Shown piece after piece: positions 60,045 through 64,000 of a stretch of DNA of 64,000 nucleotides. The first letter of the stretch is position 1. Each line of letters begins with the position of its first letter. Source of the DNA: Burkholderiaceae bacterium (lineage in GTDB: Bacteria; Pseudomonadota; Gammaproteobacteria; Burkholderiales; Burkholderiaceae_D). The DNA lies in NCBI GenBank assembly GCA_018261755.1, contig JAGTRJ010000022.1, positions 1 to 64,000 on the forward strand. The letters are read 5' to 3'. The position numbers and the translations under genes were made by a program. The notes under the pieces are model-generated. The model searched no databases, had not been told where the DNA came from, and worked only from the letters and a program-made list of their open reading frames with translations.

Positions 60045-60307
60045 GATGAATGTCCAGATGGTTTGTTGTGTGGCGGACAATCCGCCGGCAGGTGATGAGT
60101 GTAATGGCGCGTTGATGGCGAATGCAAGAGGCGCCTTCGTGGCTCAACCCGATAAAAGCGCCATTTTGTCACCAAAACATCACCCGGTTACAGGTAAAAT
60201 GGCAACTTCTTGCTGGATGGATGCACTGATTCATCCGGACTGGTGGATGTCATCATCTGCAAATTTTCATAATGTAATTCTGCGGCCGGCGGGCAATTCA
60301 TAATGTC

Positions 60308-62173
60308 ATGAGCGATACAACAAACATCCTGGCGAAACAACGCTCGACTCTCCAGCGGATGATGCGGGTATTCCTGCCAGCGGCGCTGTTAATCTGCTTT
60401 TGCGCCTTTTTCATCCATCAGGCCGAAGTCGAGCGGCAGCACGCCGAGCACGCCAGTCGCGAACAGGAAGCGGTTCGCGCTGGTACGGTCGCGATTAACC
60501 GCATGCTGCAGGTGGTCGGACGCGATTTGCTGTATCTCGCCGGACGCCATCAAATTCAGCAACTGGTCGATTCGCCGAGCGAGGAGGCAATGGAAAACCT
60601 TGCGACGCAATGGGCAAGGTTTTCGCAGGCGAACCAGGTGTACAACAAGATCCGCTGGATCGACGAAACCGGCATGGAGCGGCTGCGCATTGATTATGCC
60701 GAGCCGGAACCGCTGGTCGTGCCGAAAGCAAAATTGCAGAACAAGGGCGATCGCTATTTTTTCACCCGCACCAACAAGTTACAGGAAAACGAGATTTTCG
60801 TTTCGCCGCTGGATTTGAACGTCGATAACAACCAGATCGAAGTGCCGCACCATCCGAACATCCGTTTCGGCATGCCTGTGTTCGACAGCAATGGCAAGCG
60901 CCGCGGCATCATTTTGCTGAATTATTCGGCACGCGATTTGCTCAAGCGTTTCGAACAGGAAACCGGCGAGCGCAGCAACCCGACCTGGCTGGTGAATCAG
61001 GATGGCTACTGGCTCAAGGGCGCGAGCCACGATGACGAATATGGCTTCATGTTCAAGCGCGACGACCTGACGATGGGACGGCGTCACGCCGAGGCATGGA
61101 AGCGCATTACCGCCAGCGAAAAGGGGCAGTTTGAAACGCCGGAAGGATTGTGGACTTTTGCCACGGTTTCACCATTGCACGAATGGCAGAACACCAGCAA
61201 TGGCAAATCGCGCGGGTTTTTAATCGTGATCGGCAGCCAGGGACAGGCGGACGAGTACGCATGGAAATCGGTATCGTTGCTGCCGATGGCGGATTACGAC
61301 GCCGGATTGTTGATGTTCAGGCTGACGCTTGGCGGCGGCACGCTGCTGCTTCTGGTGCTGTTTTTTGCCGTTACCTGGCGCATGTCTCACGTCGCTCATG
61401 CAAGGGAGCGCATCCAGAGCGAACTGACTGTCGCGACCGACATTCAGGCCAGCCTGCTGCCACGGCTGTTCCCCGCCTTTCCGGAACGTCCGGAATTCGA
61501 CATCTATGCGCTGATGGAACCGGCGAAGGAAGTCGGCGGCGATTTCTACGATTTCTTTTTCATTGACGACACGCACCTGTGCTTCCTGGTGGCTGATGTT
61601 TCCGACAAGGGAGTGCCGGCGGCACTGTACATGATGGTGGCGAAAACCCTGCTGAAATCCGAAGGGCAGCGTTTGGGCGAGCCGGATCAGATGCTGGCAT
61701 CGGTCAACAACACGCTGGCGGCCGACAATGACCGCTGCATGTTCGTGACCGTGCTGTGCGCGATCCTGAACACGAAAACGGGCGAAGTGCGCATGGCCAA
61801 TGCCGGCCACAATCCGCCGCTGCTGCTTGATTCGCAAGGCGTTCGCTATCTGCATCCGAAGGCGGGCATCGTGCTGGGGCCGATGGCTGACGTCAGGTAT
61901 GAAGCCGAGCGGCTGGTATTGCAGCCGGGCGACACATTGTTTCTTTACACCGACGGCGTGACTGAAGCGAAGAACTGGGAAGATGAACTGTATGGCGAAG
62001 CACGATTGCTGCGGGCATTGCAGCAATGCCCGGATACGGACGTGACCAAAACGATCCATTACATCAGTGCAGACGTTAATCACCATGTGGCTGGCGCGCC
62101 GCAGTCGGATGATGTGACGATGCTGGCGATTACGTATCACGGAATGGCGGTTGAACAGAGGCTGGAAAAATAA
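60308..62173 (+). CDS. Membrane sensor with SpoIIE/RsbU-type PP2C phosphatase
   Basis: A 621-residue two-helix membrane protein. TM1 is at about 20-38; residues 40-325 are a periplasmic Cache-like sensor (WIDETGMERLRIDY, FVSPLDLNV, MPVFDSNGKRRGIILLNYSARDLLKRF); TM2 at about 338-358; then a short HAMP-like linker and the SpoIIE phosphatase domain from about 375. The latter has GGDFYDF, VADVSDKGVPAALYM, NAGHNPPLLL, LYTDGVTEA and SDDVTMLAI. Such proteins dephosphorylate anti-sigma-antagonists in partner-switching pathways. It is two bases upstream of a large substrate-binding lipoprotein gene, suggesting a coupled sensor pair. Confidence 0.9.
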   Translation: MSDTTNILAKQRSTLQRMMRVFLPAALLICFCAFFIHQAEVERQHAEHASREQEAVRAGTVAINRMLQVVGRDLLYLAGRHQIQQLVDSPSEEAMENLATQWARFSQANQVYNKIRWIDETGMERLRIDYAEPEPLVVPKAKLQNKGDRYFFTRTNKLQENEIFVSPLDLNVDNNQIEVPHHPNIRFGMPVFDSNGKRRGIILLNYSARDLLKRFEQETGERSNPTWLVNQDGYWLKGASHDDEYGFMFKRDDLTMGRRHAEAWKRITASEKGQFETPEGLWTFATVSPLHEWQNTSNGKSRGFLIVIGSQGQADEYAWKSVSLLPMADYDAGLLMFRLTLGGGTLLLLVLFFAVTWRMSHVAHARERIQSELTVATDIQASLLPRLFPAFPERPEFDIYALMEPAKEVGGDFYDFFFIDDTHLCFLVADVSDKGVPAALYMMVAKTLLKSEGQRLGEPDQMLASVNNTLAADNDRCMFVTVLCAILNTKTGEVRMANAGHNPPLLLDSQGVRYLHPKAGIVLGPMADVRYEAERLVLQPGDTLFLYTDGVTEAKNWEDELYGEARLLRALQQCPDTDVTKTIHYISADVNHHVAGAPQSDDVTMLAITYHGMAVEQRLEK

Positions 62174-62175
62174 AG

Positions 62176-64000
62176 ATGAAGAGCACGATAAGGCTGGTTT
62201 GGCTTTGCATGATGATGGTGATGGCGCTTGCAGGTTGTGGCAAGGGGGAGAGCGTCATCAGCGTTCCGGATGATGCGCACGACAAGCGCATTGGCGTGAT
62301 GACCGGCGCGATTGGCGAAACGATTGCGAAAACCCGTTTCCCGAGAGCAGAGGTCAAGAGTTTTGACGACATCATGGATGGCGTCGCCGCCATCAAATCG
62401 GGGCAGATCGACGCCATCATCACGGCTTATCCGACGGCAATCAACATAGCGAAAAGAAATGCCGAATTGCAGATGCTGTCCGAACGGATGGGGAACGAGG
62501 ATACCGCAGTTGCGATCAGGAAGGACGACGACCAGTTGCTGGCAGATGTGAACCGGATCATCGCTGAACTGGAGCGCGACGGCACGCTGGCATCGATGCA
62601 AAAACGCTGGCTGAAGACGGATCTGTCGCCGTATGAAGAAATGGACATTGCCGTTCTGACCGAAGGGAAACCGATCAAGGTCGGTGTGAGCGCAACGCGC
62701 GAGCCGCTGAGCTTTGTGGACAGGAATGGCAAGGTTACTGGCCTCGACGGTGAATTGGCGCGATTGATCGGTGCCAAGTTGCAACGGCCGGTGGAATTTC
62801 ACGACATGAAATTCATGGCGCTGATTCCTGCGCTGCAGTCGGGCAAGGTCGACCTGATCATTAGCGGCATGAATGCCACGGCGGAACGGAAAAAAAGCGT
62901 GAATTTTTCGCAAGCCTATTTTGCGAATGCGCAGGTAATGATTGTCAAGAAGCCATCCGGCGAACAGGCGAAGGCAGACGGGGCAGCATCGAAGGATCCC
63001 GCGTCTGGCAATGAACTGGAAATACTCCAGCAGACCGCAGGCAAAAAGATTGCCGTGATGACGGGGTCGACTGGCGAGATGACGGCGACGGCGAAATTCC
63101 CCAAGGCCGATCTCAAGCGTTTTGACGATGCGGCCGATACCGTGGTCGCCGTCAAAACCGGGCAGGCGGATGCGGCGGTCATTTCCTACTCGTCCAAACC
63201 GCTGATTTTGCGGGCGCACCCGGAAATGCGCGTGTTGCCGGATCGTTTGCTGGAAGAACAGATTGCGATGGCGGTCAAGAAGGGCAATGGCGCACTGCTC
63301 AATGACATCAACCGTATCATTGATGAACTGAAGGCGGATGGCACGCTGGCCGCAATGGAAAAACGCTGGATGAAGGATGATTCTTCGGCTTATGAAGCGC
63401 GGGAAATTCCGGCGGTAAAGGAAGGGAATACGCTGCGGGTTGGCGTGACGGCCACGCTTGAGCCATTCATTTTCGTGGATGGCAAAGGGCGGCTTGTCGG
63501 CCACGACGAGGAATTGGCGCGAATTATCGGCATGAAGCTGAAGCGACCGGTGGAATTCATCGACATGAAATTCACGGCGCTGATTCCTGCACTGCAATCC
63601 GGCAAAATCGATGTGATTATCAGTGAGATGACGGCGACCGACGAGCGGCGCAAATCGGTCGATTTTACCCATCCGTACTTTGTCAATACGCAGTTGCTGC
63701 TGGTGAAGAAAGCTGGTGCCCCAGCGGCCACTGCGCCAGCGGAAAAAAGCGCCGGCACTTCTGGGGGCGAGATTGCGAATCTGGCACAAATCAATGGCCG
63801 GCGCATCGGTGTTTTGTCCGGCTCGGCCGGCGATCTGGCTGCGCGCAAGCATTTCCCGCAGGCCAGCTTCCAGGTGATGAATTCAGGGACAGATGCAGCG
63901 CTGGCGCTGAAAACGCACAAGGTCGATGCCTTCGTGTACGACAAAAGCGTGTTGCTCAATCTGGTGGAGAAGAATCCGGAGCTGGTGATTTTGGAACAGC
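62176..64000 (+). CDS. Lipoprotein with tandem SBP-family-3 binding domains (runs off window)
   Basis: An open frame of at least 608 codons, continuing past the window. Signal peptide with lipobox LAGC (C21). The protein is built from alternating half-domains of family-3 solute-binding proteins: a second-lobe half (about 36-148), then a first-lobe half (about 166-258) with a second-lobe half (289-400), then a first-lobe half (420-512) and the start of another second-lobe half (541-). Equivalent positions recur every 252-253 residues (I39, I292, I544; V169, V422), with strong similarity including at DNA level (GACATGAAATTC, GCGCTGATTCCTGC), so the repeats are recent. It begins with half a domain. 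No transporter permease is adjacent; a sensory ligand-binding role with the upstream SpoIIE phosphatase is inferred. Confidence 0.85.
   Translation, partial: MKSTIRLVWLCMMMVMALAGCGKGESVISVPDDAHDKRIGVMTGAIGETIAKTRFPRAEVKSFDDIMDGVAAIKSGQIDAIITAYPTAINIAKRNAELQMLSERMGNEDTAVAIRKDDDQLLADVNRIIAELERDGTLASMQKRWLKTDLSPYEEMDIAVLTEGKPIKVGVSATREPLSFVDRNGKVTGLDGELARLIGAKLQRPVEFHDMKFMALIPALQSGKVDLIISGMNATAERKKSVNFSQAYFANAQVMIVKKPSGEQAKADGAASKDPASGNELEILQQTAGKKIAVMTGSTGEMTATAKFPKADLKRFDDAADTVVAVKTGQADAAVISYSSKPLILRAHPEMRVLPDRLLEEQIAMAVKKGNGALLNDINRIIDELKADGTLAAMEKRWMKDDSSAYEAREIPAVKEGNTLRVGVTATLEPFIFVDGKGRLVGHDEELARIIGMKLKRPVEFIDMKFTALIPALQSGKIDVIISEMTATDERRKSVDFTHPYFVNTQLLLVKKAGAPAATAPAEKSAGTSGGEIANLAQINGRRIGVLSGSAGDLAARKHFPQASFQVMNSGTDAALALKTHKVDAFVYDKSVLLNLVEKNPELVILEQ

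Follow-up and report, generated by a model that had tools for sequence, protein, structure and literature searches.

The last gene of the window, the 64,000-nt stretch of Burkholderiaceae DNA analyzed here, belongs to a set of five genes, which we read, with a probability of about 0.5, as an ABC importer of the polar-amino-acid type that is gated by a partner-switching module. The fuller version of this reading is held more tentatively, at just under even odds; according to it, the importer represents a family found in several phyla, a STAS protein set by SpoIIE and RsbW would dock on a pseudokinase domain of the ATPase, and a permuted array of binding units would feed a single pore. The numbering of the contig (C18) is that of the window, and the contig runs 9.5 kb past the window; the features are as follows:

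60308–62173 (+), SpoIIE-type (PP2C) sensor phosphatase, 621 aa (SpoIIE, E 2.2e-50; HK_sensor_dom_bact, E 5.6e-28)
62176–64000 (+), window part of the binding-permease gene, 608 of 1272 aa
62227–62238 (+), predicted lipobox LAGC, aa 18–21, read directly off the translation rather than with a signal-peptide predictor
62281–62952 (+), unit 1, type A: lobe 2 aa 36–161, lobe 1 aa 165–259; Asp position occupied by Ala
63040–63711 (+), unit 2, type A copy: lobe 2 aa 289–414, lobe 1 aa 418–512; Asp position occupied by Ser
63796–64000 (+), window part of unit 3, type B, in which lobe 2 (aa 541–669) starts; Asp position occupied by Asp
to 64473 (+), rest of unit 3, with lobe 1 (aa 673–766) past the window edge
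64576–65244 (+), unit 4, type C: lobe 2 from aa 801, lobe 1 from aa 928; Asp position occupied by Thr
65296–65991 (+), permease domain, aa 1041–1272, past the window edge
65991–67094 (+), ABC ATPase fused to a degenerate anti-sigma-type domain (tail at 66711–67091)
67091–67447 (+), STAS protein (family match, E 4.7e-19)
67454–67870 (+), RsbW-like kinase (family match, E 6.6e-29)

The SpoIIE gene ends at 62173, two bases ahead of the ATG of the binding-permease gene, which bears out the coupling to a SpoIIE-type phosphatase proposed in an earlier note on this DNA. At two of the gene joints, the neighboring genes share 4 bases, and at the other two they are separated by 2 and 6 bases; such tight joints make co-transcription and coupled translation likely. 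In the phosphatase, an extracytoplasmic sensor region (HK_sensor_dom_bact / weak dCache) is located between two hydrophobic stretches, which were judged by eye, and is followed by the SpoIIE domain, whose catalytic region was aligned. The window locus holds the SpoIIE phosphatase together with an RsbW-like kinase and a STAS protein carrying the phospho-Ser motif YISS(A/S/V)GLR, which is kept in all 23 of the 23 STAS proteins. A promoter and terminator scan 3′ of the last gene returned none, no sigma-factor gene was recognized by eye among the neighboring ORFs, and folding of the leader (60081–60310) gave a z of −2.2. In 4 of the 11 loci viewed, a gene for an NMT1/THI5-family binding protein (E about 1e-40) lies directly 5′ of the SpoIIE gene (L018:6141-7163; L019:3986-5014; L061:12913-13944 (−); L099:11486-12520 (−)), and its product is a candidate periplasmic co-sensor of the phosphatase; at the window locus no such gene directly precedes SpoIIE.

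Followed past the window edge, the ORF opening at 62176 stops at C18:65994 (+) and encodes a lipoprotein of 1272 aa, in which four substrate-binding units are followed by an amino-acid-type ABC permease domain. SBP_bac_3 matched the whole protein in five stretches (E 1.7e-144) and the window part, searched by itself, in three. According to the lobe profiles, lobe 2 starts at aa 36, 289, 541 and 801 (spacing 253, 252 and 260) and lobe 1 at aa 165, 418, 673 and 928. Since the starts alternate and the permease comes directly behind, we conclude that there are four units, each consisting of lobe 2 and then lobe 1. This agrees with the tandem units of a 252–253-residue period and with the half-domain start after the lipobox that the earlier note had described, and supplies the repeat count for which it had proposed to follow the contig. 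The C-terminal permease domain is of the BPD_transp_1, His/Glu/Gln/Arg type (PF00528, 68.7 bits, cut-off 26.4; TIGR01726, 70.9 bits, cut-off 42.2), the family matches covering aa 1061–1265. The note had stated that the gene is coupled to the phosphatase and not to a permease, but the permease domain is part of the same protein and the ATPase is encoded by the next gene, both beyond the window. A downstream permease and ATPase, which the note had named as the mark of an ordinary ABC importer that would refute its reading, are thus present in the letter, yet the importer is far from ordinary. Its hunch of an oddity, the tandem, the half-domain start and the SpoIIE coupling hold, while the missing permease and the recency of the duplication do not, and the evidence does not support binding sites across repeat boundaries; the last two are taken up below.

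As judged by the lobe profiles, the order of lobe 2 and lobe 1 is a circular permutation, the reverse of that in ordinary family-3 binding proteins. Applied to 54 loci, the profiles recognized 74 lobe-bearing proteins: 41 free-standing proteins of one unit, 10 with one unit fused to a permease, 7, 9 and 4 with two, three and four units fused to a permease, and 3 others that are irregular or cut. Lobe 2 comes first in 73 of the 74; the exception (L024) is cut by a contig end, where a remnant of lobe 2 is visible. As a control, we applied the same profiles to five ordinary loci with six annotated binding proteins and found lobe 1 followed by lobe 2 in all five that were recognized, the sixth being without a profile match; E. 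faecalis GlnP in this control reads lobes 1-2-1-2-permease. The canonical topology, with lobe 1 ahead of lobe 2, was not found in the units of the window array and its relatives. The swap is also apparent in a free-standing relative from the window genome (L006, contig C26), which aligned to PDB entry 6svf (T. maritima ArgBP, TmArgBP) in two blocks of exchanged order, i.e. query 164–260 with chain 8–104 and query 34–149 with chain 114–228. The permuted order would be derivable from a canonical tandem by removal of the first lobe 1 and the last lobe 2; for comparison, an E. faecalis match covered 89% of the query in one piece.

The L006 gene (L006:5772-6566 (−)) encodes a fifth, free-standing permuted binding lipoprotein (264 aa) in the window genome, is located far from the permease gene and may provide a lipoprotein feeding the window permease; the ORF about 47 bases ahead of it presumably resembles an aminoacyl-histidine dipeptidase. 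At L061:5559-10132 (−), L086:5104-9599 and L087:5411-9906, a three-unit and a one-unit binding-permease fusion adjoin, and the presence of different fusions side by side suggests a heterodimeric pore.

The earlier note had raised the idea of binding sites across repeat boundaries, but linkers, lobe co-variation and an AlphaFold2 model all favor pairing of the lobes inside the unit. Under cross-boundary pairing, lobe 1 of each unit would close on lobe 2 of the following one, so that the topology would be canonical and an orphan half-domain would be left at either end. Profile matches do run in this register (aa 167–400 on SBP_bac_3 1–131; aa 413–651 on TIGR01096), because it matches the canonical lobe order. 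As proof of canonical domains, we set these boundary-spanning matches aside, since free-standing units show the permuted order only. The 41 free-standing and 10 permease-fused one-unit proteins argue against such pairing, as a protein of one unit has no other intramolecular pairing choice than its own two lobes. The long linkers, moreover, are those at the joints between lobe 1 and the next lobe 2 (18–36 residues, median 23.5, 40 cases), whereas lobe 2 is connected to lobe 1 by 4–18 residues (median 8, 112 cases). Lobe 1 distances co-vary with lobe 2 distances at r 0.93–0.94 in the same unit and at r 0.56 across the boundary, measured on the same 38 junctions.

In the AlphaFold2 model of units 3–4 (20 rows, pLDDT 83.1, pTM 0.50), residues 2–237 superposed on OpuAC (198–214 aligned, 4.3–5.3 Å), residues 5–236 on GlnBP, GluR0 and BvgS (165–168 aligned, 3.2–3.3 Å), and residues 252–495 on MetQ and two similar proteins (173–177 aligned, 3.2–3.5 Å). 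The identity in these whole-unit superpositions is only 7–14%, since each lobe takes the role of the other in the match. The cross-boundary register (about residues 138–340), whose identity of 21–34% reflects sequence homology, gave 14–16 Å rmsd on ordinary binding proteins compared to 3.2–5.3 Å for whole units. The mutual arrangement of units 3 and 4 lies outside what the model predicts, given its pTM of 0.50. Taken together, pairing inside the unit is favored by sequence and model, and we consider cross-boundary pairing very improbable.

A tree of the units distinguishes four types: A heads the arrays, B stands in the middle, C adjoins the permease and S is free-standing; the window array is composed of A, A, B and C. 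Each type spans several phyla, and B and A also occur free-standing. A warning by the tree tool that long branches meet leaves the order of the deep forks unsure. The unit types are older than the phyla, so the duplications are not recent, as the earlier note had called them because of recurring DNA words. In addition, the DNA repeat is weak, with only one pair of direct repeats of at least 30 nt (80 nt, 71% identical, spacing 759), and the closer match to unit 1 of the window is the Methylobacter unit 1, with 65/76% identity of the lobes, as against 46/64% for unit 2 of the window.

With regard to the ligand site, we take Arg to be the holder of the carboxylate and Asp that of the amine, in the roles they have in LAOBP-like proteins. 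Arg is present at the carboxylate position in 112 of 112 units, and Asp at the amine position in 37 of 41 free-standing units. In arrays, this Asp is usually missing in the first unit, mostly kept in the middle and often replaced by Thr or Ser in the last. The window array, with Ala, Ser, Asp and Thr in units 1–4, retains Asp in unit 3 only; at least one unit should thus take amino acids, and the rest would differ in ligand or act as spacers. Alpha-amino acids are the expected ligands of unit 3 and of the free-standing L006 unit.

The ATPase (367 aa) consists of 240 GlnQ-like residues and a tail that matches HATPase_c_2 weakly, under the cut-off of that family (E 2.2e-5). Walker A, signature and Walker B (GPSGTGKST, LSGGQ-QR and LFDEPTS-LDP) are invariant in 9 of 9 fused ATPases. 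An AlphaFold2 model of the tail (51 rows) reached a pLDDT of 90.1 and a pTM of 0.85. With this model, Foldseek returned 16 matches at E ≤ 0.001, all of which are RsbW/SpoIIAB/UsfX chains. The first 11 VIA matches were UsfX, RsbW, SpoIIAB, SiaB and Rv1364c (Z 13.6–11.1), the best being UsfX (Z 13.6, 2.6 Å, 119 residues), followed by LvrC (Z 9.9) and by histidine kinases and others (Z ≤ 7.3). The predicted structure thereby shows that the tail has the SpoIIAB/RsbW anti-sigma HATPase fold. At the level of sequence, a search of the tail against the PDB gave a single match (KWOCA_73, E 0.74) and one against plasmid records gave none.

The N-box Asn is found in 1 of 51 fused tails and the G1 Asp in none of the 51, compared to 18 of 18 separate RsbW-like kinases for either residue. 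Due to the loss of Asn and Asp from the ATP site, the tail is probably not an active kinase. Going by alignment and model, it looks like an anti-sigma-type pseudokinase and, as such, a natural spot for STAS binding. The sole fused tail keeping the N-box Asn (EELVVN) is encoded at L097:4989-6101 (−), where the array units also stand apart in the tree; this locus may be close to the ancestral state.

The tail occurs in 2 of 97 genomes of the window genome's family, i.e. its own and one congener, with one further congener lacking it, and in 1 of 398 of its phylum, again its own (searched with the single sequence and with a nine-row profile, with the same result). A permease-domain scan of genome contigs yielded nine loci (Burkholderiaceae, Geobacteraceae, two Methylobacter, Chlorobiaceae, Nitrotoga, two Ignavibacteria and one Bacteroidetes), and all nine carry the fused ATPase. 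With the tail profile, and with the centre genomes included, matches were obtained in 3 of 247 in the phylum of the Geobacteraceae genome, 6 of 151 in the order of Methylobacter and 38 of 345 in the phylum of the Chlorobiaceae genome, two of the latter having proved to be plain kinases. L104 and L105, which were initially taken as tail loci on the strength of two weak matches, are SpoIIE-STAS-RsbW clusters from the same phylum without an ABC gene, in which the profile had matched the kinase; they represent plain partner switches and were dropped from the counts.

Switch genes were counted within 6 kb at 52 fused-ATPase loci from several phyla, with L009 and L017 (the same locus) counted once and the second of two G572 places left out; L025 and L100 encode cut proteins, and L025 is part of the 52 loci and outside the 51 tails. 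SpoIIE, STAS and RsbW genes were all present at 13 of the 52 loci, or at 14 if the window's own SpoIIE gene, which is located off the extracted piece, is included; after this correction, 8 loci have two of the genes, 2 have one and 28 have none. The 28 belong mostly to the phylum of the Chlorobiaceae genome, and contig ends truncate a few of them; 21 are compact loci made up of genes for the fused ATPase, a permease and a free-standing binding protein. Where a tail is kept without a local switch, it must have another partner or role. In 21 of the 23 STAS-bearing loci, the STAS gene overlaps the ATPase gene or starts at most 86 bases from it. The HATPase/ABC distance ratio is 2.48 in loci without the switch and 2.14 in loci with it, based on pairs that are not independent; this modestly faster divergence of the tail fits relaxed constraint, as weak evidence.

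At four loci (L019:12167-12697 (−), L020:10883-11377 (−), L023:12162-12665 (−) and L099:4589-5083), an RsbW-like gene is located on the strand opposite the operon and encodes a protein of a different subfamily with a longer N-terminus, so the switch kinase seems to have been replaced there; L019 is the corresponding operon of Methylobacter tundripaludum. Near L022, L025, L071, L096 and L098, no kinase gene was found.

In an importer gated by partner switching, the RsbW-like kinase would phosphorylate the STAS protein, and the sensor phosphatase would dephosphorylate it upon an extracytoplasmic signal. Unphosphorylated STAS protein would then bind to the ATPase at its dead kinase domain and alter the activity of the enzyme, with activation being likelier than inhibition by analogy with MlaB-MlaF, and the phosphorylated form would be unable to dock. 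The tethered array would offer several binding sites close to one pore. The main point against a pure partner-switching role is that 28 of the 52 fused-ATPase loci are without any of the three switch genes nearby; the loci with a kinase of another subfamily or with none nearby also count against it.

The same loci, which keep the tail without the three genes, would be expected if the tail were a structural or dimerization module only and SpoIIE, STAS and RsbW an independent switch that is merely co-transcribed, and the loss of the ATP-site residues would fit this as well. However, the fold is the very one that STAS proteins bind, loci from several phyla have the STAS gene immediately after that of the ATPase, and divergence of the tail is somewhat faster in loci lacking the switch, which makes a purely structural tail unlikely in our view. 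Signal flow could also run the other way, with the importer itself as the sensor: as a transceptor, its transport cycle would shift the affinity of the tail for the STAS protein, and nutrient flux would determine how much of the latter is free for the RsbW-like kinase and a client elsewhere. Partner switching classically runs from a sensor to an anti-sigma factor, the RsbW-like kinase of the locus is intact and might serve a client elsewhere, be it a sigma factor or another effector, and several array units without the amine-binding Asp would suit sensing over bulk uptake. Nevertheless, the operon already possesses a dedicated membrane sensor, the SpoIIE protein with its extracytoplasmic domain, and the by-eye survey of neighboring ORFs revealed no sigma-factor gene; we therefore regard a transceptor as a real but minority possibility, and gating of the importer by the switch as the preferred reading.

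If the parts cooperate as in this preferred reading, bacteria could switch an importer directly by means of a switch known mainly from gene control. Post-translational switching of ABC transporters is poorly understood, and the MlaFB study (PMC7367683), which proposed phosphoregulation of the STAS protein, left the control of MlaB open. Here, a STAS protein is encoded together with a docking-type domain and with the enzymes presumed to phosphorylate and dephosphorylate it, so that five genes allow a direct test of STAS phosphoregulation. In turn, the binding units represent a natural experiment in circular permutation of a Venus flytrap, both free-standing and in tandem. They raise the question of whether ligand-driven closing still works with a single covalent hinge crossing in place of two, and are a possible scaffold for sensor design. 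In the open-access literature, outside which most subscription journals lie, we found no description of the combination, of a family-3 permutation or of an anti-sigma-type tail on an ABC ATPase, one precedent for permuted binding proteins, TpMglB-2, and MlaFB for a STAS protein on an ABC transporter.

Partner switches are composed of SpoIIE/RsbU, SpoIIAA/RsbV and SpoIIAB/RsbW, and further include SiaABCD of Pseudomonas, whose client is a diguanylate cyclase. The window locus encodes the same three kinds of protein with the same STAS motif, plus an ATPase tail of anti-sigma fold; its presumed client is the importer ATPase, whereas that of the other switches is a sigma factor or, in Sia, the cyclase. 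In MlaFB, the STAS protein MlaB is bound to the ABC ATPase MlaF (PMC7367683), and thus a STAS protein controls an ABC transporter via its ATPase, a likeness that at the window consists of gene adjacency and a docking-type fold. MlaB binds MlaF itself and, as far as the available text of that study goes, has no known kinase or phosphatase, while the window locus combines genes for a kinase and a phosphatase with a dedicated docking-type domain. ABC transporters and MlaB are not mentioned in the available part of a review of STAS-only proteins (PMC8256260), and an amino-acid ABC locus of Pseudomonas syringae has reportedly been co-opted for signaling (PMC7386598).

GlnPQ of Lactococcus and Enterococcus (PMC8025302) has two binding domains in tandem fused to an amino-acid permease. 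It shares with the window the family-3 domains in tandem before a like permease domain, the ATPase in the next gene and a flexible interdomain linker. GlnP of E. faecalis, however, is arranged as lobe 1-lobe 2-lobe 1-lobe 2-permease, in contrast to the lobe 2-lobe 1 order, with up to four units, of the window array and its relatives, and the E. faecalis GlnPQ ATPase ends at 245 aa without a tail, where the window ATPase continues into its anti-sigma-like domain. The glucose-binding protein TpMglB-2 of Treponema pallidum (Tp0684; PMC4990184) is likewise a natural circular permutation of an ABC binding protein in a tethered lipoprotein and keeps ligand binding; its fold is of the type I sugar-binding kind, with the cut located within the N lobe. 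The window units belong to SBP_bac_3, are cut at the lobe boundary and, unlike TpMglB-2, form tandem arrays fused to a permease. Hence, each ingredient has its precedent, the tandem in GlnPQ, the permutation in TpMglB-2, the STAS protein on an ATPase in MlaFB and the switch itself in the partner switches.
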